DNA of 64,000 nucleotides from Sanguibacter sp. HDW7. Its GTDB lineage: Bacteria; Actinomycetota; Actinomycetes; Actinomycetales; Cellulomonadaceae. The stretch covers positions 3,224,001-3,288,000 of the forward strand of contig NZ_CP049862.1 in assembly GCF_011300875.1 (NCBI RefSeq), written 5' to 3'. A model generated the notes under the pieces. It was not told the origin of the DNA, did not search any database, and was given only the letters and a program-made list of their open reading frames with translations. Shown here piece after piece: positions 9,230 to 54,483 of this stretch. Made by a program: the position numbers and the translations under genes. The first letter of the stretch is position 1; every line of letters starts with the position of its first letter.

Positions 9230-9580
9230 TCACGCCCCGTCCGACGGAGCCTCCCGCTCAGCGACGTCCCCTGCAGTATGCGCGGGCTGATCGTCGACGG
9301 GCGGCACCCACTCGGAGACGAGCCCGTCGACAACCTCGAGGCGTGCGAGCACCTCGGACTCGATGGCGTCGACGTCGGAGCCGTCGTCGAGCACTCGACC
9401 GGCGGCAAGCCCGACAAGGAACGCCGTGAGCGGTGCACCGGGTCGGACGGCGTGGTGGGCGACGTCTCGCACCATGTCGAGGATCGGCCCCGTGACGCGG
9501 TCGAGCACGTCCTGCTCGATGTCGAGGGCAGGTCCGGCCTGCTCGAGCCAGCGGTCCAGGTCGCTCACCGGGGTCTCCAT
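9230..9580 (-). CDS. DUF6457-type small protein in molybdate operon
   Basis: Encodes 116 residues, acidic and helical, containing LDRWLEQAGPALDI and VAHHAVRPGAPLTAFLVGLAAG. This matches small actinobacterial proteins of the DUF6457 type that I recall near molybdenum genes; no function is established. Its start lies inside the end of modC (overlap 9565-9580), so it is the last gene of the modABC operon and probably linked to Mo uptake or cofactor handling. No membrane segment or signal peptide. Confidence 0.75.
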   Translation of the reverse strand: METPVSDLDRWLEQAGPALDIEQDVLDRVTGPILDMVRDVAHHAVRPGAPLTAFLVGLAAGRVLDDGSDVDAIESEVLARLEVVDGLVSEWVPPVDDQPAHTAGDVAEREAPSDGA

Positions 9581-10320
9581 CCATCCTCGGCGCGCCCGTC
9601 GCGCGCCTCCCGCACCGATTCTCCCCTTTCGACGGCCCTTCCGTCAGCCAGACGCACGGAACGATCTCCGAGCGCGACAGCCTCGGCGGCGTCGTGGGTG
9701 ACGAGAACGACGGGCGTGCCCCCCGCGGCGACGTCGCGGACGACGTCGTGGAGGAGAGGCCGGGCAGCCTCGTCGAGGGCTGCGAACGGCTCGTCGAGCA
9801 GCAGCAGCGCAGGTTCGACGACGACGGCACGGGCGAGCGCGACGCGCTGCGACTGGCCTCCGGAGAGCCGGTCGGCACGCTCGTGCGCGTGGTCGGCGAG
9901 ACCGACGTGCTCGAGGGCGTCGGCCGCGCGCTTCCGGGCGTCGCGGACCGGAACACCGCGGGCGCGGAGACCGAACGCGACGTTCTCGAGCGCGCTCAGG
10001 TGTCCGAAGAGGACGTGCGACTGCGGCACGAGCCCGGTCCGACGGTCGGGCGCGGGCACGTGGACACGCGCCTGGACGTCGTCGAGCACCGCACCGCCGA
10101 GCGTGACGCGTCCGGCAGCGAGCGGCACGAGGCCCGCGAGCACCCAGAGGAGCGTCGACTTGCCGGACCCGTTGGGGCCGACGACGCACAGCACCTCGCC
10201 CGGCGCGACGGACAGCTCGACGTCGAGCTGCAGCCGGCCTCGCTCGGCGACGACGTGCGCACGGAGACCCCCGGGCACGTGACCGTCGTCCACCCCGGCC
10301 CCCGGGAGCTGGAGCCTCAC
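9565..10320 (-). CDS. modC: Molybdate ABC transporter ATP-binding protein
   Basis: Encodes 251 residues. Walker A GPNGSGKST is near residue 49, the Q-loop is in GLVPQSHVLF, the signature LSGGQSQRVALARA is near 150 and Walker B LLLLDEPFAALD near 172, with the switch histidine in VLVTHD. It is shorter than E. coli ModC because it lacks a C-terminal TOBE domain; that domain is in the separate regulator encoded at 12067-12468. The GTG start overlaps the modB stop as GTGA. Confidence 0.92.
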   Translation of the reverse strand: MRLQLPGAGVDDGHVPGGLRAHVVAERGRLQLDVELSVAPGEVLCVVGPNGSGKSTLLWVLAGLVPLAAGRVTLGGAVLDDVQARVHVPAPDRRTGLVPQSHVLFGHLSALENVAFGLRARGVPVRDARKRAADALEHVGLADHAHERADRLSGGQSQRVALARAVVVEPALLLLDEPFAALDEAARPLLHDVVRDVAAGGTPVVLVTHDAAEAVALGDRSVRLADGRAVERGESVREARDGRAEDGWRPR

Positions 10321-36606: not shown

Positions 36607-37080
36607 TCAGGCCTGCGACGGGTACCCGAAGGAGCTCGCGACCGGCAGCGTCCCGGTGCGCAGGCCGTCGAGGACGAAGCGCTCGTAGTGCGGGACGGGT
36701 TCGGGCAGGGCGTCGAGGGCGTACCAGTCGAGGCCGTCGCACTTGTGCGGCTCCACGATCCGCGGCGTGCCGGCCCAGGTCTCGACGGTCCAGAACCACT
36801 CGATGCGCTGCTCGATGGGCGCGTCGGAGCCGTCGGTGCGCTGCAGGACGGTGAGGAGCCGCAGGTCGGCGACGTCGACGGTCACGCCGAGCTCCTCGGC
36901 GACCTCACGCACCGCGGCCCGGGCGGCGGTCTCCCCGGGCTCGACGTGCCCGGCGGCGCCCGCGACCCAGTGCCCGTCCATGTAGCCGGTGCCGGCGCGG
37001 TGCTGCAGCAGCACCTCCTCGCCCCGTCGCAGGAACACGTAGGAGGCGGGGATGAGGGCGTAGCCCGTGCGTTCGCTCAT
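36607..37080 (-). CDS. NUDIX hydrolase coupled to dnaB
   Basis: Encodes 157 residues. The NUDIX box G-x5-E-x7-REVAEELGV is intact at residues about 44-66. The start overlaps the dnaB stop by four bases (ATGA), so it is translated from the dnaB transcript. Substrate is unknown; a nucleotide-sanitising role would suit its coupling to the replicative helicase but is only an inference. Confidence 0.9.
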   Translation of the reverse strand: MSERTGYALIPASYVFLRRGEEVLLQHRAGTGYMDGHWVAGAAGHVEPGETAARAAVREVAEELGVTVDVADLRLLTVLQRTDGSDAPIEQRIEWFWTVETWAGTPRIVEPHKCDGLDWYALDALPEPVPHYERFVLDGLRTGTLPVASSFGYPSQA

Positions 37081-38441
37081 GCCTGCATGTCCACGAAGCG
37101 CGAGTAGTGGCCCTGGAACGCGACGGTGATCGTGTCGGTGGGGCCGTTACGGTGCTTGGCGACGATGAGGTCGGCCTCGCCCGCGCGCGGCGACTCCTTC
37201 TCGTAGGCGTCCTCGCGGTGCAGGAGGATGACCATGTCAGCGTCCTGCTCGATCGAGCCGGACTCACGCAGATCACTCATCGCGGGCTTCTTGTCGGTGC
37301 GCTGCTCAGGGCCACGGTTGAGCTGCGAGAGCGCGATGACGGGGACCTCGAGCTCCTTGGCGAGGAGCTTGAGGGCACGGGAGAACTCGGAGACCTCCTG
37401 CTGGCGCGACTCGACGCGCTTGCCGGACGTCATGAGCTGCAGGTAGTCGATGACGACGAGCTTGAGGTCGTGGCGCTGCTTGAGGCGGCGGCACTTGGCG
37501 CGGATCTCCATGAGCGACATGTTCGGGGAGTCGTCGATGAACAGCGGGGCCTCGGAGATGCGGCCCATGGTGCCGGCGAGCTTCTGCCAGTCGTCGTCGC
37601 TCATCGAGCCGTTGCGCAGCTTCTGCAGGTGCACGCGCGCCTCGGCGGAGAGCAGACGCATCGTGATCTCGGTCTTGCTCATCTCAAGACTAAAAACAAC
37701 GGCAGCCTGGTTGTTCTTAATTGCCGCGGCGCGCACGAAATCAATGGCGAGGGTCGATTTTCCGATGGCCGGACGGGCGGCGATAACAATCATCTGACCT
37801 GGGTGAAGACCATTAGTCAGCTTATCAAGATCAGCAAATCCGGTCGGCACGCCGACCATGCCCTCGCCGCGGCTTCCCGCGGCCTCGATCTCGTCGACCG
37901 TGGAGCCGAGGACCTCGCCGAGGATGACGTAGTCCTCGGTCGCGCGGGTCTCGGTGACGGCGTAGACCTCGGCCTGGGCGTTGTTGACGATCTCGTCGAC
38001 GTCGCCGCCGTCGGCGGCGTACCCGAGCTGGACGATGCGGGTGCCGGCCTCGACGAGGCGGCGGAGGATGGCGCGCTCGCGCACGATGCGGGCGTAGTAG
38101 CCGGCGTTCGCGGCGGTGGGCACCATCGCGATGAGCTCGTGGATGTAGGGGGCGCCACCGATGCGCCCGACCTCGCCGCGCTTGGTGAGCTCGGCGAGGA
38201 CCGTGATGGCGTCGGCCGGCTCGCCGCGACCGTAGAGGTCCATGATCGCGTCGTAGATGAGCTCGTGGGCGGGCCGGTAGAAGTCGTTGCCCTTGAGCTC
38301 CTCGACGACGTCCGCGATGGCGTCCTTGGAGATGAGCATGCCGCCGAGGACGGACTGCTCGGCGGCGATGTCCTGGGGCGGGGTGCGGTCGAAGGTGCGG
38401 CCTTCGGGGCTGCCGTACTCGTCGTTGTGCTCCGCCGACAT
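37077..38441 (-). CDS. dnaB: Replicative DNA helicase
   Basis: Encodes 454 residues. The N-terminal domain starts PPQDIAAEQSVLGGML. The RecA-like domain has Walker A ARPAIGKST near residue 220, VFSLEMSK, Walker B KLVVIDYLQLM and SDLRESGSIEQDADMV. No intein is present. A tract of about 160 bp over the Walker A region has strikingly low GC and unusual codons (separate entry). The ATG at 38441 has GAGG nine bases upstream; the frame extends 21 codons further without one. A -10-like TAGTGT lies at 38550-38555. Followed by a coupled NUDIX gene. Confidence 0.97.
   Translation of the reverse strand: MSAEHNDEYGSPEGRTFDRTPPQDIAAEQSVLGGMLISKDAIADVVEELKGNDFYRPAHELIYDAIMDLYGRGEPADAITVLAELTKRGEVGRIGGAPYIHELIAMVPTAANAGYYARIVRERAILRRLVEAGTRIVQLGYAADGGDVDEIVNNAQAEVYAVTETRATEDYVILGEVLGSTVDEIEAAGSRGEGMVGVPTGFADLDKLTNGLHPGQMIVIAARPAIGKSTLAIDFVRAAAIKNNQAAVVFSLEMSKTEITMRLLSAEARVHLQKLRNGSMSDDDWQKLAGTMGRISEAPLFIDDSPNMSLMEIRAKCRRLKQRHDLKLVVIDYLQLMTSGKRVESRQQEVSEFSRALKLLAKELEVPVIALSQLNRGPEQRTDKKPAMSDLRESGSIEQDADMVILLHREDAYEKESPRAGEADLIVAKHRNGPTDTITVAFQGHYSRFVDMQA
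37681..37841 (-). other. Low-GC, foreign-codon tract inside dnaB
   Basis: By hand count the tract is about 51% GC against roughly 70% on both sides. Codons 201-253 use TTT, CTT, GAT, AAT, ACT, AGT, ATT, GTT, GGA, AAA and GCA, which are almost absent from neighbouring genes, yet the protein remains a normal DnaB. It is centred on the P-loop. Boundaries are abrupt. It could be a recombination or co-conversion tract, or a nucleotide-level functional element. Confidence 0.85.
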
Positions 38442-38596
38442 GCGCCCCGCCTCTCGTGCGACCCGGTGGCCGCTCCACCGGATCGTCCCTCGAGCCTCGG
38501 ACATCCGGGCTCGGTGGGTGGTCCGGGCCGACGGGCCCGGGACACCCGCACACTACGGCGCGACGGTCCGTGGGGCCAACGTCGTCGTGCACCGAG

Positions 38597-38737
38597 TTAT
38601 CCACAGCGAACTCCACGGTTGTGGAAACAGCCCGTCAGGGAACCCACAGCCTGTGGATCACTCGGGGGATAACATGGGAGCGCGGTGTCACACCGCTTCA
38701 CGATCCGCAAGATTCCGCCGTTCACGCCTGTGGACAG
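38597..38737. promoter_or_regulatory. Cluster of DnaA boxes between dnaB and MATE gene
   Basis: A perfect TTATCCACA lies at 38597-38605. Near-matches on the other strand are TGATCCACA (38652-38660, 8/9) and CTGTCCACA (38729-38737, 8/9 to TTGTCCACA), with a weaker GTTTCCACA at 38620-38628. The 309-bp gap from dnaB to the MATE start (38442-38750) contains no gene. Confidence 0.65.
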
Positions 38738-41440: not shown

Positions 41441-42883
41441 TCAGCGCGTCGCCGCCCCGTCCCGCGGCGTAAGGCTCCGCACAGCGTCGCGGAGGAAGCC
41501 CCGGGGGTTGGCGTGGCGCAGGACCTTGATCGAGCGCTCGAGCGCGGTCTCGGGCTCGACCCCGAACCGCAGCACCGAATAGGCCGCGGCGGCTGCGGCG
41601 GTCCTGCTGCGGGCCTCGTAGCAGTGGACGAGCACGGTGCGGCCCTCGGCGCGGAGGTCGGCGATGACGTCCGCGACCTCGCGGAGCGTGGCGGCAGGGT
41701 CGAGGTTCGTCCCCTGCTGGTCGATGAGCCGCACGCGCACGTGGTGCTCGGGCCGCACCCCGGCGGCGGGTGCGGGCTGCGCGGTGCCGACGCGGCACAG
41801 CGAGACGACGGCGTCGACCCCGGCGGGCGGGCCGTCGAGCGCCGAGAGGTCCGCGAGGAGGACGCCCGGGTCGTCGGGGTGCGCGACGGGAGGCGTCGTG
41901 TCGTCCGAGACGGGCATCCGCTCGACGCGCGGCCACGCGCCCGGCCTGCCCGGCGCCCCGTCGAGCACGATCTCGGTGAGGCGTGCGAGGTCGTCCCCGG
42001 TCGCGATGATGTCGCGTCCGCCCCAGCCGTGCAGGTGGCGCAGCCACGTGAGCGGCAGGCGGGAGTGCCCGGCGAGCGCGCCCTCGAGCATGCCGGTGAT
42101 CGCGGCGACGGTGTCGGTGTCACCGCCTCCGCGGACGGCGAGTTCGACGCGGCTGCGGTAGTCGGTGCCGTGGACGACGGCGGACCAGGCGGACTGGAGC
42201 GACGAGCGCACCCACCCGTTGGAGCCGTACCAGTGGACGGGCAGGTGCGCCTCGGCCTCGTCGAGGAGCGCGGCCCAGTGGGCGGCGCGGTCGGCGGGCA
42301 GGGCGCGGAGGTCGGCCTCGCCCGTGAGGACTGCGTGGCGGACGGTGAGGGCCCACAGGACGCAGGCCTCGGCGGCCTCGGGGTCGTGGTGGGTGAGCGT
42401 GGACTGGCGGGCGGCGGCCGCGGCGGTGCGTCCGGCGTCGTCGAGCGTCGCGACGATGACGGGCGCGAGGCGCATGAGCGACCCGTTGCCGCCCGAGCGT
42501 CCGGTTTCCGCGTGGAGGGCGTCCGAGGCGGCGACGGCTGACGCCTCGGTGGACTCGGCGCGGCCGAGCACCTGACGGGTCTGGATGCCGACGTCCTTGG
42601 CGTCGCGGGCCCAGTCCTTCCAGGCGCCGACGATGCCTCCGAGCGTCGCGGCGTCGTCGAGCGGCTCGCCCGCGGCGAGGGCGCGGAGGATCGGGACGGC
42701 CATCGACGTGTCGTCGGTCCACTCCCCCTTCTCCCAGCCGAAGGTGCCGCCGGCGGCGAGCCTCACGGGCTGGTCTGCGGCGAGCGGCGCCTGGAACTCG
42801 TAGGGGGCTCCGACAGCGTCGGCGAGGGCGGCGCCGAGGACGACGCCGACGGCGCGGTCCTTCTGCTGCGTGGTGAGCACCAT
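41441..42883 (-). CDS. ADP-ribosylglycohydrolase fused to a dual-specificity-phosphatase-like domain
   Basis: Encodes 480 residues. Residues 1-300 match the DraG/ADP-ribosylglycohydrolase fold: GAALADAVGAPYEF, the metal-binding WTDDTSM, GNGSLMRLAPV, and late GGGDTDTVAAITG with paired aspartates. Residues about 330-480 carry a cysteine-phosphatase signature, VLVHCYEARSRTA (C-x5-R). It could remove ADP-ribose from a target and then process a phosphorylated product. The ATG has GGGAGG five bases upstream. It is divergent from an NrtR-type regulator, an association known for NAD/ADP-ribose genes. Confidence 0.9.
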   Translation of the reverse strand: MVLTTQQKDRAVGVVLGAALADAVGAPYEFQAPLAADQPVRLAAGGTFGWEKGEWTDDTSMAVPILRALAAGEPLDDAATLGGIVGAWKDWARDAKDVGIQTRQVLGRAESTEASAVAASDALHAETGRSGGNGSLMRLAPVIVATLDDAGRTAAAAARQSTLTHHDPEAAEACVLWALTVRHAVLTGEADLRALPADRAAHWAALLDEAEAHLPVHWYGSNGWVRSSLQSAWSAVVHGTDYRSRVELAVRGGGDTDTVAAITGMLEGALAGHSRLPLTWLRHLHGWGGRDIIATGDDLARLTEIVLDGAPGRPGAWPRVERMPVSDDTTPPVAHPDDPGVLLADLSALDGPPAGVDAVVSLCRVGTAQPAPAAGVRPEHHVRVRLIDQQGTNLDPAATLREVADVIADLRAEGRTVLVHCYEARSRTAAAAAAYSVLRFGVEPETALERSIKVLRHANPRGFLRDAVRSLTPRDGAATR

Positions 42884-42960
42884 GCTGACCTCCCTGAAGG
42901 TCGATATGCTGAAACTTGCGATTATCGAGAGAATAAGCGCGGACATGATTAGATGTCAAC
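42884..42960. promoter_or_regulatory. AT-rich divergent promoter with candidate NrtR site
   Basis: This 77-bp region is unusually AT-rich. GCGATTATC (42918-42926) and GAATAAGCGC (42931-42940) form an imperfect dyad. A -10-like TTAGAT ends six bases before the NrtR ATG. The site would let NrtR control itself and the divergent glycohydrolase. Confidence 0.5.
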
Positions 42961-43605
42961 ATGCACGTCGACTCCCACGGCAAGAGGCTCACGGACTACC
43001 CGCGCCCCTCGGTCGCCGTCGACACTGCGGTCCTCTCCGTCGTCGACGGCGCGCTGGTCGTCGCGCTCGTCGTCGACCACCGCACGGGTGGCCGACGCCT
43101 TCCCGGGACCTTCCTTCACGCGGGCGAACGCCTCGCCGACGCCGTCCGCCGCTCCCTCGCCGCGAAGGCTGGCCTCCACGATCTCGAGCCCGTCCAGCTC
43201 GGCGTCCTCGACGACCCCGAGCGCGACGATCGCGGATGGGTCCTGTCCGTCGCGCACCTCGCCGTCGTCCCGGCCAGCACGCTCGCGGGCCTCGAGCCCG
43301 CGCCTGTCGCCGAGGCCCACGGGCTCGACCACGACCACGACGCGATCGTCGACCTCGCCGTCGCGCGCGTCCGCGCGGACCACGCCACGCGCCCCGACCC
43401 GAACCGGCTGCTCGGCGAGCCCTTCCCCATGACGGAGCTCCGCGAGCTCCACGAGGCGGTCGCGGGCGAGCGCCTGCAGCCCGACACGTTCCGCCGCTGG
43501 GCGCTGCCGTGGCTCGTGGACTCGGGCGAGCAACGCCGCGGCACCGTCGGCAAGCCGGCCGCCCTCTTCACCCACCCCGCCGACCCGGCCCCCGTGGCTC
43601 GATAG
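42961..43605 (+). CDS. nrtR: NrtR-like regulator (NUDIX plus winged helix)
   Basis: Encodes 214 residues. Residues about 14-140 form a NUDIX-type domain in which the hydrolase box is degenerate (GTFLHAGERLADAVRRSLAAKAG: the REx2EE residues are lost), so it should sense ADP-ribose-like ligands rather than cut them. Residues about 145-214 are the NrtR-type winged helix (ELHEAVAGERLQPDTFRRW, KPAALF). NrtR proteins repress NAD-metabolism genes. The stop codon lies inside palindrome B copy 3. Confidence 0.88.
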   Translation: MHVDSHGKRLTDYPRPSVAVDTAVLSVVDGALVVALVVDHRTGGRRLPGTFLHAGERLADAVRRSLAAKAGLHDLEPVQLGVLDDPERDDRGWVLSVAHLAVVPASTLAGLEPAPVAEAHGLDHDHDAIVDLAVARVRADHATRPDPNRLLGEPFPMTELRELHEAVAGERLQPDTFRRWALPWLVDSGEQRRGTVGKPAALFTHPADPAPVAR

Positions 43606-48291: not shown

Positions 48292-48948
48292 GTGCGCGCA
48301 CGGTCGGAGGTCCTCGAGACCGCGATCCTCGGCATCCTCGCGGACTCCCCCCTCCACGGCTATGAGCTGCGCAAGCGGCTCAACGTGCTGCTCGGGTCGT
48401 TCCGCGCCCTCTCGTACGGCTCCCTCTACCCGGCACTGCGCTCGCTCGAGCAGCGCGCGCTCATCGCCGGCACGGAGACGACGGACGCGCCTCCCCAGCA
48501 CGCGCTCTCCGGACGTCGCTCGCGCATCGTGTACGAGCTCACGGCGCACGGCAAGGAGCACCTGCAGGGGCTTCTCTCGTCCTCGGGCCCCGCGGCCTGG
48601 GAGGACGAGGGCTTCGACGTCAGGTTCGCCCTCTTCGGGAAGACCGACGCCGAGACCCGCCTGCGCATCCTCGAGGGACGTCGCACGCGGCTCGCCGAAC
48701 GCCTGGAGATGGTGCGCGAGAGCGCGAGCCGGACCCGCGAGCGTCTCGACGAGTACACGCTCGAGCTTCAGCGGCACGGCCTCGAGCAGGTCGAGCACGA
48801 GGTCGCCTGGCTCGACGAGCTCATCGACACCGAGCGCGGGCGTGCCCGTGCTCCGCGGTCCGCGGCGCGCCGCGCAACGGGCAGCACCACTCAGAACGAA
48901 GCCGCGGACGAGCAGCGTCCCGGCACAACCAGCAAGGAGCGAGGATGA
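48292..48948 (+). CDS. PadR-family transcriptional regulator
   Basis: Encodes 218 residues. The winged helix reads [21 protein letters not shown] and [18 protein letters not shown], with a beta-wing containing [14 protein letters not shown] long C-terminal helical region forms the dimer interface. GGAGGAGG precedes the GTG. Its stop overlaps the ino1 start by four bases, so it should control its own operon, including inositol synthesis. A PadR gene next to ino1 is, from memory, also seen in mycobacteria. Confidence 0.92.
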
Positions 48949-50039
48949 CCTCCATCCGCGTCGCCATCGTCGGCGTCGGCAACTGTGCCGCGTCGCTCGT
49001 CCAGGGCGTCCACTACTACCGCGACACCCCGGCCGACCAGAAGGTCCCCGGCCTCATGCACGTCCAGATGGGCGAGTACCACGTCAAGGACGTCGAGTTC
49101 GTCATGGCGCTCGACGTGGACGCGAAGAAGGTCGGCTTCGACCTCTCGGAGGCGATCTTCGCCTCGGAGAACAACACCATCAAGATCTCGGACGTCCCGC
49201 CGCTCGGCGTGACGGTCCAGCGCGGCCACACCCTCGACGGCATCGGCAAGTACTACGCCGAGACCATCGAGGAGTCTGACGCCGAGCCGATCGACGTCGT
49301 CCAGCAGCTCAAGGACAACAAGGTCGACGTCCTCGTCTGCTACCTCCCCGTCGGTTCGGAGAAGGCCGCGAAGTTCTACGCGCAGGCCGCCATCGACGCG
49401 AAGGTCGCCTTCGTCAACGCGCTCCCCGTCTTCATCGCGTCCGACCCGGAGTGGGCCGCGAAGTTCGAGGAGGCCGGCGTGCCGATCGTCGGCGACGACA
49501 TCAAGTCGCAGGTCGGCGCGACCATCACGCACCGCGTGCTCGCGCGTCTCTTCGAGGACCGTGGAGTCATCCTCGACCGGACGTACCAGCTCAACGTCGG
49601 CGGCAACATGGACTTCAAGAACATGCTCGAGCGTGAGCGCCTTGAGTCCAAGAAGATCTCCAAGACGCAGGCCGTGACGTCCAACCTCGAGGACGGCCCC
49701 CTGGCCGGCAAGAAGGAGGACCGCAACGTCCACATCGGCCCGTCGGACTACGTCGCGTGGCTCGACGACCGCAAGTGGGCGTACGTGCGCCTCGAGGGTC
49801 GCGCGTTCGGCGAGGTCCCCCTCAACCTCGAGTACAAGCTCGAGGTCTGGGACTCCCCGAACTCGGCCGGCATCATCATCGACGCGCTCCGCGCGGCGAA
49901 GATCGCCAAGGACCGCGGCGTCGGCGGCCCGATCCACGCTGCTGCGACGTACTTCATGAAGTCGCCGCCGCTCCAGATGGAGGACGGCGTCGGCCGCGCC
50001 CGCCTCGAGGCCTTCCTCGCGGGCGAGATCGAGCGCTGA
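48945..50039 (+). CDS. ino1: Inositol-3-phosphate synthase
   Basis: Encodes 364 residues of the short actinobacterial form. The NAD loop is [16 protein letters not shown] near residue 6; [45 protein letters not shown] and [11 protein letters not shown] are the active-site stretches. It converts glucose-6-phosphate to inositol-1-phosphate for mycothiol and phosphatidylinositol. It is translationally coupled to padR. Confidence 0.97.
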
Positions 50040-51507: not shown

Positions 51508-51552
51508 CGCTGGATGGCAGCGTGAGACCGCACCCACGGGGCTTCTGTGCGA

Positions 51553-51578
51553 GTTAGTCAGGACGGATGCCTAACTAA
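51553..51578 (+). promoter_or_regulatory. Second inverted repeat upstream of importer operon
   Basis: TTAGTCAGG (51553-51561) and CCTAACTAA (51570-51578) pair at 8 of 9 positions across eight bases. Possible operator of an unidentified regulator. Confidence 0.45.
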
Positions 51579-51633
51579 GTCTCATCTTGGTAACGACCCT
51601 GCGCCAGGGGTGCAGATTTAAGTAACCCTTCCT

Positions 51634-51639
51634 TACTAT
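51634..51639 (+). promoter_or_regulatory. -10 of importer operon
   Basis: TACTAT lies in an AT-rich segment, with a weak -35-like TGCAGA 17 bases upstream. The predicted leader is about 60 bases, with GAAAGGA before the ATG at 51705. Confidence 0.5.
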
Positions 51640-51704
51640 GGCTCTAGACCTCCACGGTGGAGGACTCGTCGGTGCAGTGCTGCGCCGCAGAGAAAGGACC
51701 AACG

Positions 51705-53441: not shown

Positions 53442-53487
53442 CACCTGAGCCGAAGAGGAGCTGGATCGAAGTGAGGACGGCAACGCC

Positions 53488-54483
53488 ATGAAGTTCTACA
53501 TCCGAAGGATCGCCTTCTACCTGGTGACCCTCTGGGCAGCCATCTCCCTCAACTTCTTCATCCCCAAGCTGATGCCCGGCAATCCTGCCGACATCTTCCG
53601 GGAGAACCTTCTCCGCCAGGGTGGCGAGGTCACCCCGGCCATGGAGAAGACGATCCAGCTCCTCTTCGGCTCTCCCGACGACTCCCTCTGGGAGCAGTAC
53701 ACGCGGTACTGGTCGAACCTCTTCCAGGGCAACCTGGGAATCTCGACCACGAAGTACCCGACTCCGGTCACCGAGCTCCTCAGCGAGGCGCTCCCCTGGA
53801 CCCTCATCCTCGTCGGCACCGCGACCGTCATCGCCTTCGTCCTGGGCGTCGGGCTCGGCGCCTGGGCGGGCTGGAAGCGCGGCACGTGGGTCGACAGCCT
53901 CATCCCCGGCTCCGCACTCATGCAGTCCATCCCGTACTTCTGGCTCGCGCTCGTGCTCGTCGCGATCTTCTCGGTCAACCTCGGTTGGTTCCCGATCATC
54001 GGCGGCTACTCGGCCCGCGAGTTCCGCGGCGGGCCAGAGATGTCGTGGGAGTTCATCGCGAGCGCCACGAAGCACGCGGTCCTGCCCGCGGCGACCATCG
54101 TCATCTCGTCCGTCGGCGGCTGGCTCATCGGCATGCGCAACATGATGGTCGCGACCCTCTCCGAGGACTACGTGACGACGGCCGAGGCCAAGGGGCTCAA
54201 GCCCTCCCGCGTCTTCCTCACCTACGCGACGCGCAACGCGTCGCTCCCCTCGCTCGCAGGATTCACGATCACCCTCGGCTTCGTCGTCGCCGGATCGATC
54301 GTCATGGAGCAGGTCTTCTCCTACCCCGGGATCGGCAAGCTCATGATCACCGCGGTGACGCAGAAGGACTTCGCGCTCATGCAGGGAGTGTTCCTCGTCA
54401 TCACCCTCACGGTGCTCGCGGCGAACTTCCTCATGGACATCTTCTACGGACTCATCGACCCGAGGGCGCGCCAGAATGTCTGA
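53488..54483 (+). CDS. Dpp/Opp-type ABC permease (DppB-like)
   Basis: Encodes 331 residues with six hydrophobic segments. The N-terminal FYIRRIAFYLVTLWAAISLN and PGNPADIFREN match the DppB family, and the coupling loop reads YVTTAEAKGLKPSRVFL. It pairs with the next permease to form the channel. It overlaps that gene by eight bases. Confidence 0.95.
   Translation: MKFYIRRIAFYLVTLWAAISLNFFIPKLMPGNPADIFRENLLRQGGEVTPAMEKTIQLLFGSPDDSLWEQYTRYWSNLFQGNLGISTTKYPTPVTELLSEALPWTLILVGTATVIAFVLGVGLGAWAGWKRGTWVDSLIPGSALMQSIPYFWLALVLVAIFSVNLGWFPIIGGYSAREFRGGPEMSWEFIASATKHAVLPAATIVISSVGGWLIGMRNMMVATLSEDYVTTAEAKGLKPSRVFLTYATRNASLPSLAGFTITLGFVVAGSIVMEQVFSYPGIGKLMITAVTQKDFALMQGVFLVITLTVLAANFLMDIFYGLIDPRARQNV

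Follow-up and report, generated by a model that had tools for sequence, protein, structure and literature searches.

The closest described parallels to the locus analysed here come from mobile elements that enter host genes. In fungal mitochondria, SNP density is raised beside mobile self-splicing introns and not beside immobile ones (Repar & Warnecke 2017, PMC5378118). In the part of that paper drawn on here, no donors were found, repair mutagenesis was weighed against co-conversion, and polymorphism within populations did not perfectly match the presence or absence of the element (PMC5378118). The dnaB gene described below is similar in that the diversity of a host gene is raised at a mobile-element site with no donor identified. 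Unlike in the mitochondrial case, empty and occupied dnaB alleles differ between species, the gene is a bacterial chromosomal one, the elements are inteins, nearly all changes are synonymous and they form a low-GC patch.

Additional likenesses are offered by the sections consulted on WHO6 and FBA1 of Torulaspora, where an intein-derived endonuclease is set against an essential gene, the alleles that survive carry changes at the target, and the conversion tracts are asymmetric, reaching 106-306 bp in one direction and 5-14 bp in the other (PMC7282813). However, WHO6 is located downstream of FBA1, the FBA1 alleles, sensitive and resistant, number only a few, resistance is backed by experiment, and no family-wide codon pattern is involved (PMC7282813). 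Haloarchaeal mcm, in the portion of the report used here, is likewise a single replicative helicase gene with several sites for inteins, and its empty alleles have features opposing invasion, but resistance at MCM-d is attributed to a Pro for Ser that blocks splicing while the endonuclease still recognises the site (PMC10643990). For class 3 DnaB P-loop inteins, the insertion point follows the P-loop Lys and precedes a Ser/Thr, according to the consulted part of PMC5050341. In the consulted portions of PMC3229294, PMC1508164 and PMC5050341, synonymous change at empty sites does not come up, and the open-licence literature, as far as its accessible text extends, yielded no description of empty intein sites that had been synonymously recoded.

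A low-GC tract in the dnaB gene

The window, namely the whole 64-kb stretch of DNA analysed, carries the replicative DNA helicase gene dnaB on the minus strand (37080..38441), an ORF with an ATG at 38441 and with matches to Pfam DnaB_C (1.2e-109) and the DnaB N-terminal domain. An upstream in-frame ATG at 38504 gives a 475-aa dnaB ORF. This gene was the sole full-length match in its own genome, the one other match being 37% over 66 residues. The window allele is called G000 hereafter, and its 438 codons are numbered from the F of FDRTPPQD.

By comparison of GC content and codons, a synonymously recoded tract with A/T third positions was delimited at 37686..37841 on the minus strand, from codon 185 (37841) to codon 236 (37686). 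The GC content is 0.506 at 37680-37839 and about 0.65-0.75 in the neighbouring DNA on both sides. With the same value of 0.506, positions 37679-37838 form the deepest 160-bp GC trough of the window (mean 0.72, sd 0.045), so the low-GC patch over the DnaB P-loop with a normal protein, described in a sequence-only reading, is real. A/T third positions were found in 25/50 codons of the tract, the highest 50-codon stretch among 41 coding-like ORFs; the runner-up, with 24, covers the beginning of a different gene. Third positions are 91-95% G/C in the dnaB genes of six congeners. The Walker A motif GKS (37755-37763) lies inside the tract.

Further low-GC troughs of the window (0.544-0.562) were located at 51543-51702, 2538-2697, 42839-42998 and 53453-53612. 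Three other A/T-rich candidates (48877-49026, 9496-9645 and 1517-1666) were set aside, because by eye, against the ORF listing, they coincide with the beginnings of genes, with gene junctions or with the non-coding strand.

Empty and occupied insertion points in the genus

Inteins of relatives define two insertion points, both of which are empty in the window. The first separates the Lys (AAA) from the Ser (TCG) in the GKS of Walker A (codons 212/213; 37757..37758, minus strand), where the inteins of relatives have the ends ALALDTP and HN, followed by the Ser. The second lies between Gly and Ser of RESG/SIEQ (codons 379/380; 37256..37257, minus strand). About the GK/S point, the tract extends from -28 to +24 codons, and site 2 of the window is merely mildly A/T-enriched, as judged by A/T-third counts per 15 codons. 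The dnaB reading frame of the window is intact and uninterrupted, in agreement with the earlier statement that no intein is present now.

Among the six genomes of the genus searched, an intein of 363 aa with a GC content of 0.71 and GC-rich flanks occupies exactly the GK/S point in G002, and one of 427 aa occupies site 2 (codons 379/380) in G005, whereas neither is found in G000, G003, G001 or G004. The G002 intein scored above the cut-off of LAGLIDADG_3. By eye, it has an Ala1 (ALALDTP) and HEW, RC and PTHN residues, and it resembles class 3 inteins by Ala1 and W-C-T-like residues, which we take to be the hallmarks of that class; the window allele is an empty target without the intein. The suggestion that the P-loop is an intein site was thus supported by the intein at the exact homologous point in G002, and across the family recoding tracks empty sites. 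A search with PF14890 gave no match in the window's own genome, and the same model also misses the P-loop intein of G002. As a check for a third intein site in another gene, the model was run on the family and matched in 35/150 genomes searched; the places compared, for a part of the matches, were at dnaB site 2, and further genes may be among the rest.

The closest congener, G003, has a DnaB protein 99% identical to that of G000, and 71/438 codons differ. Twenty-eight of these 71 lie within one 51-codon stretch, and none of 20,000 permutations was as extreme; over codons 186-236 there are 28 synonymous and 0 amino-acid differences. Change is densest at codons -28 to -17 (9/12) and +5 to +24 (12/20) about GK/S. 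The patch had been placed precisely over the P-loop, which holds in that the tract covers GK/S, but the densest change against G003 lies outside the P-loop codons 204-216 (5/13). Nucleotide divergence at codons 186-236 versus elsewhere was 0.183 versus 0.038 for G000/G003, 0.190 versus 0.041 for G001/G004 and 0.131 versus 0.069 for G002/G005, and synonymous divergence across dnaB was likewise raised in the tract relative to the rest of the gene. The clustering of differing codons in G001/G004 was also unmatched in 20,000 permutations.

The low-GC codons themselves vary within the genus. G003 has a milder set that partly overlaps that of G000, a strong set in G001 is absent from its near twin G004, and the occupied G002 is without such codons; the same rare codons, whose presence in all relatives had been named as refuting horizontal conversion, are therefore not carried by all congeners. 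The A/T codons of the tract are layered, with 8 common to G000 and G003 (the identical codon each time), 19 found in G000 only and 5 in G003 only.

Several side observations were made in the same comparisons. Codon 246 (37656-37658) is Arg CGT in 5/6 congeners and CGA in G003, and the 4-codon bin that contains it has A/T thirds of 0.27-0.33 whether or not the family genes are occupied, an A/T-ending codon that persists in a GC-saturated gene. A second DnaB-like gene, 38-42% identical and perhaps on a mobile element, is present in some genomes (L024 (G001:C2), G060, G212 and G120). At L012/L023 (G003:C19:81056-81217), a 132-codon frame includes 54 residues with 61% identity to the C-terminus of DnaB and may be what is left of a gene.

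Synonymous change and intein occupancy across the family

The family was taken to be Cellulomonadaceae by inference, since one of its dnaB genes (L149) is identical to that of Cellulomonas sp. Root930 (L051), and 216 of the 221 genomes searched had a match. The dnaB genes of 152 genomes were picked by rank and occupancy, and hence non-randomly; L273 (G135) was dropped, leaving 151, and L171 was retained with an alignment over 420/438 codons. The first half of L273 is not in one frame and both intein regions are present, indicating a frame disruption or an assembly error. The P-loop point was occupied in 60/151 of these genes and empty in 91, and site 2 was occupied in 39/151 and empty in 112. 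Cores were set at codons 204-230 for the P-loop and 366-404 for site 2.

In the P-loop core, the third-position A/T fraction was 0.215 both in genes with two empty sites (n=71) and in those occupied at site 2 only (n=20), compared with 0.122 in genes occupied at the P-loop only (n=41) and 0.080 in those occupied at both (n=19). In the site-2 core, the corresponding values were 0.152 for both empty, 0.097 for site 2 only, 0.247 for P-loop only and 0.120 for both occupied, against a background of 0.033-0.038 in family dnaBs. At the level of genes, uncorrected for kinship, empty and occupied alleles differed in A/T at the P-loop (Mann-Whitney p 0.0009) and not significantly at site 2 (p 0.17). 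Empties were higher in 9/10 genera with both P-loop states, g22 being reversed and g2 near equal (0.11 vs 0.09), and in 8/9 genera with both states at site 2, where the exception is the window's own genus (0.11 in the empties against 0.24 in G005, its only member occupied there). Recoding was missing (<0.1 in the core) in 36/91 P-loop empties, and g19, all members of which are occupied at the P-loop, had an A/T fraction of 0.31. At fourfold sites, 33 recoded empty cores had A.23, C.31, G.30 and T.15, compared with a background in these 33 genes of A.02, C.62, G.33 and T.03.

P-loop inteins of merely 141-146 aa, too short for an endonuclease, occur in nine genes (L196, L203, L204, L206, L255, L256, L260, L266 and L277) of several genera, alongside forms of 272-415 aa. 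The P-core A/T fraction was slightly higher with the short inteins (0.148, n=9) than with inteins of at least 300 aa (0.107, n=46).

A tree of the rest of dnaB gave 66 pairs with non-overlapping paths, of which 65, at a tree distance of at most 0.3, were used for the pair p-values. The ratio of core to background synonymous change at the P-loop was 2.78 where occupancy differs (raised in 25/25 pairs), 2.47 where both members are empty (25/26) and 1.81 where both are occupied (12/15). At site 2, the ratios were 3.00 (23/23), 1.77 (24/37) and 1.11 (3/6), respectively. Occupancy-differing pairs exceeded both-occupied pairs at the P-loop (p 0.0045) and at site 2 (p 5e-5), while both-empty and both-occupied pairs did not differ significantly (p 0.076 and 0.091, respectively). 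Among 28 pairs in which one site alone switched occupancy, the switched site was the more divergent in 20 (p 0.0044). For example, between L047 (both sites empty) and L278 (both occupied), 12/26 codons differ at the P-loop and 17/33 at site 2, compared with 13/266 elsewhere.

The direction of change was also asymmetric. In differing pairs, the family-rarer codon was carried by the empty member 172 times versus 81 for the occupied member at the P-loop, and 271 versus 94 times at site 2, and the occupied member was nearer to the family-typical codons in 20/24 (P-loop) and 18/22 (site 2) pairs. Similarly, mismatches to the consensus of occupied flanks, of 30 and with the own genus left out, averaged 5.60 in empties versus 3.57 in occupied alleles at the P-loop and 5.81 versus 2.23 at site 2. 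When the consensus was instead derived from the empty alleles, the values for empties and occupied alleles were 5.34 versus 4.82 at the P-loop and 4.34 versus 4.79 at site 2. Because the difference shrinks or reverses in this way, the two classes hold different flank types, and the empties are not merely disordered.

Causes and meaning of the recoding

We consider that the tract is probably an empty intein homing site that was rewritten without protein change as homing endonucleases attacked intein-free alleles, through escape, break repair or both. An intein is likely the cause of the recoding. Cutting by the endonuclease, whose activity is predicted, would be the driver, and two kinds of process would together produce the recoding, namely selection favouring alleles that escape cutting or invasion, and repair or recombination at the break. 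The intein found at this point in relatives, which in G002 includes a LAGLIDADG endonuclease domain, would threaten or cut a neighbouring intein-free allele. As the Walker A protein sequence has to stay the same, alleles that remain intein-free would gather their many changes near the site at synonymous positions. Three routes might lead from attack to recoding, namely selection against cutting or entry, error-prone repair, and recombination; the latter two, acting on the broken site, would explain why the tract reaches about 75 bp to either side. We know of no agent other than a site-specific intein endonuclease that would act at the two points and do so in an occupancy-dependent manner.

Some observations count against this explanation. 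The P-loop is still raised in both-occupied pairs, these do not differ significantly from both-empty pairs, the gene-level A/T test at site 2 is non-significant, 36/91 P-loop empties are unrecoded, and some genera depart from the trend (g22, g2 and g19 at the P-loop, and the window's own genus at site 2). Moreover, within +/-15 nt of GK/S the window allele has 5/30 mismatches to the occupied consensus and G003 has 2, so loss of the endonuclease footprint is not seen here, and most of the change in the window sits 30-80 bp upstream or 12-72 bp downstream of the insertion point. Intein-type endonucleases easily tolerate single synonymous substitutions, according to the consulted part of PMC3024317, so that many would be needed for escape, and the same tolerance also argues against easy escape. 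So does the cutting by haloarchaeal mcm endonucleases of a target with mostly synonymous substitutions, as given in the consulted portion of PMC10643990. Synonymous recoding might even be an inherited immunity to a gene-drive-like parasite, with third positions selected to change far beyond the footprint, but we put this forward only tentatively. Through such homology insulation, divergent flanks would make recognition weaker and also impede the homologous repair by which the intein is copied in.

Alternatively, the site could be a mutational hotspot only, where cuts are repaired by error-prone synthesis and purifying selection leaves the synonymous changes. Repair mutagenesis has been discussed for mobile introns in the part of PMC5378118 used here, and repair or recombination is supported by a gradient of change around the sites, with tails to about 20 codons at the P-loop and 45 at site 2, and by an excess of multi-base codon changes (4.4% in the P-loop core and 5.7% in the site-2 core, versus 1.0% in the background). 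However, amino-acid change did not rise alongside synonymous change at the P-loop core, where the synonymous/amino-acid counts were 199/25 in both-empty pairs versus 91/24 in both-occupied pairs (Fisher p 0.02), which supports selection; the same contrast between differing and both-occupied pairs gave p 0.09 at the P-loop, and the contrasts at site 2 were non-significant (p 0.66 and 0.35). Additionally, G000/G003 is the sole pair with 0 amino-acid changes among 612 family pairs having 26-32 synonymous tract differences, 457 of which have 4-9 amino-acid changes. A hotspot alone is therefore a rather doubtful explanation.

Slightly less probable still is co-conversion, in which gain or loss of an intein by recombination swapped the flanks for the DNA of another strain, of any GC content, and left a scar. 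The tract width fits conversion, and occupied alleles do share a flank type at site 2, where Ser380 (window 37254-37256) is AGY in 36/39 occupied versus 13/112 empty genes, suggesting that the codon adjoining the intein travels with it. At the P-loop, Ser213 (window 37755-37757) is TCN in 60/60 occupied genes, with AGY in 0/60 of them and in 12/91 empties. On the other hand, comparison with 230 other dnaB sequences (228 distinct, as L051 = L149 and L098 = L187) yielded no close source, although a close strain outside this sample may be one. The peptide of G000 at 213-241 was identical only in G003, the next nearest having 5 residue differences, and the best DNA match of the tract was again G003 (0.817, against 0.965 in the flanks), followed by one at 0.745. 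For 21 strongly recoded empties other than G000, the nearest match of the core was less alike than the flanks of the same pair in 19, the exceptions being L166 and L172, the latter about equal. This nearest-match comparison, together with the tree-independent pairs, stood in for separate trees of the tract and the flanks.

No close donor of the tract was found in 14 phage records (identities 67-75%) or in 42 plasmid records, where matches of more than 50 bases were at most 79% identical and the four matches above 80% were pieces of 25-44 bases. The proposal of co-conversion from a lower-GC donor was thus not supported, as the change against G003 is purely synonymous and the P-loop intein of G002 is itself GC-rich, as are its flanks; a GC-rich donor from the family would not reduce GC in any case. 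Because GC-saturated codons mostly change to A/T, the drop in GC needs no low-GC donor. The synonymous-only change, the peptide found only in G003 and the lack of a match closer than G003 indicate that the codons were changed in place.

A nucleotide-level constraint independent of inteins, such as an embedded RNA element or translation pausing, is very improbable even though the tract sits at a functionally key motif and outgroups are slightly raised at the P-loop too (core/background ratio 1.38, and 1.04 at site 2, in 14 pairs from 33 dnaBs of Streptomyces and close kin, including one Kitasatospora and one Saccharothrix; 1.26 and 1.01, respectively, in 20 pairs of other outgroups), since the codons are not kept in relatives, occupied alleles are less enriched, the second intein site outside the P-loop behaves alike, the hairpin and RNA signal suggested earlier fold unremarkably (z = 0.06), Rfam gave no match up to E 1 in 37000-38600, and no promoter or terminator match was found.

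Taken at the level of the family, dnaB genes without an intein appear more recoded at the site than carriers, which looks like a trace, in the DNA itself, of conflict between the gene and its parasite. The case also warns against taking every short low-GC tract in a conserved gene for foreign DNA. With two sites in one essential gene of one family and many independent changes of occupancy, dnaB offers naturally replicated material for testing what footprint homing leaves in host DNA, a matter of long debate. The finding also bears on the resistance of host genes to homing drives where the protein cannot change. If the immunity reading is true, empty intein sites could be recognised in high-GC bacteria by their low GC, and such patches would record earlier exposure to inteins.
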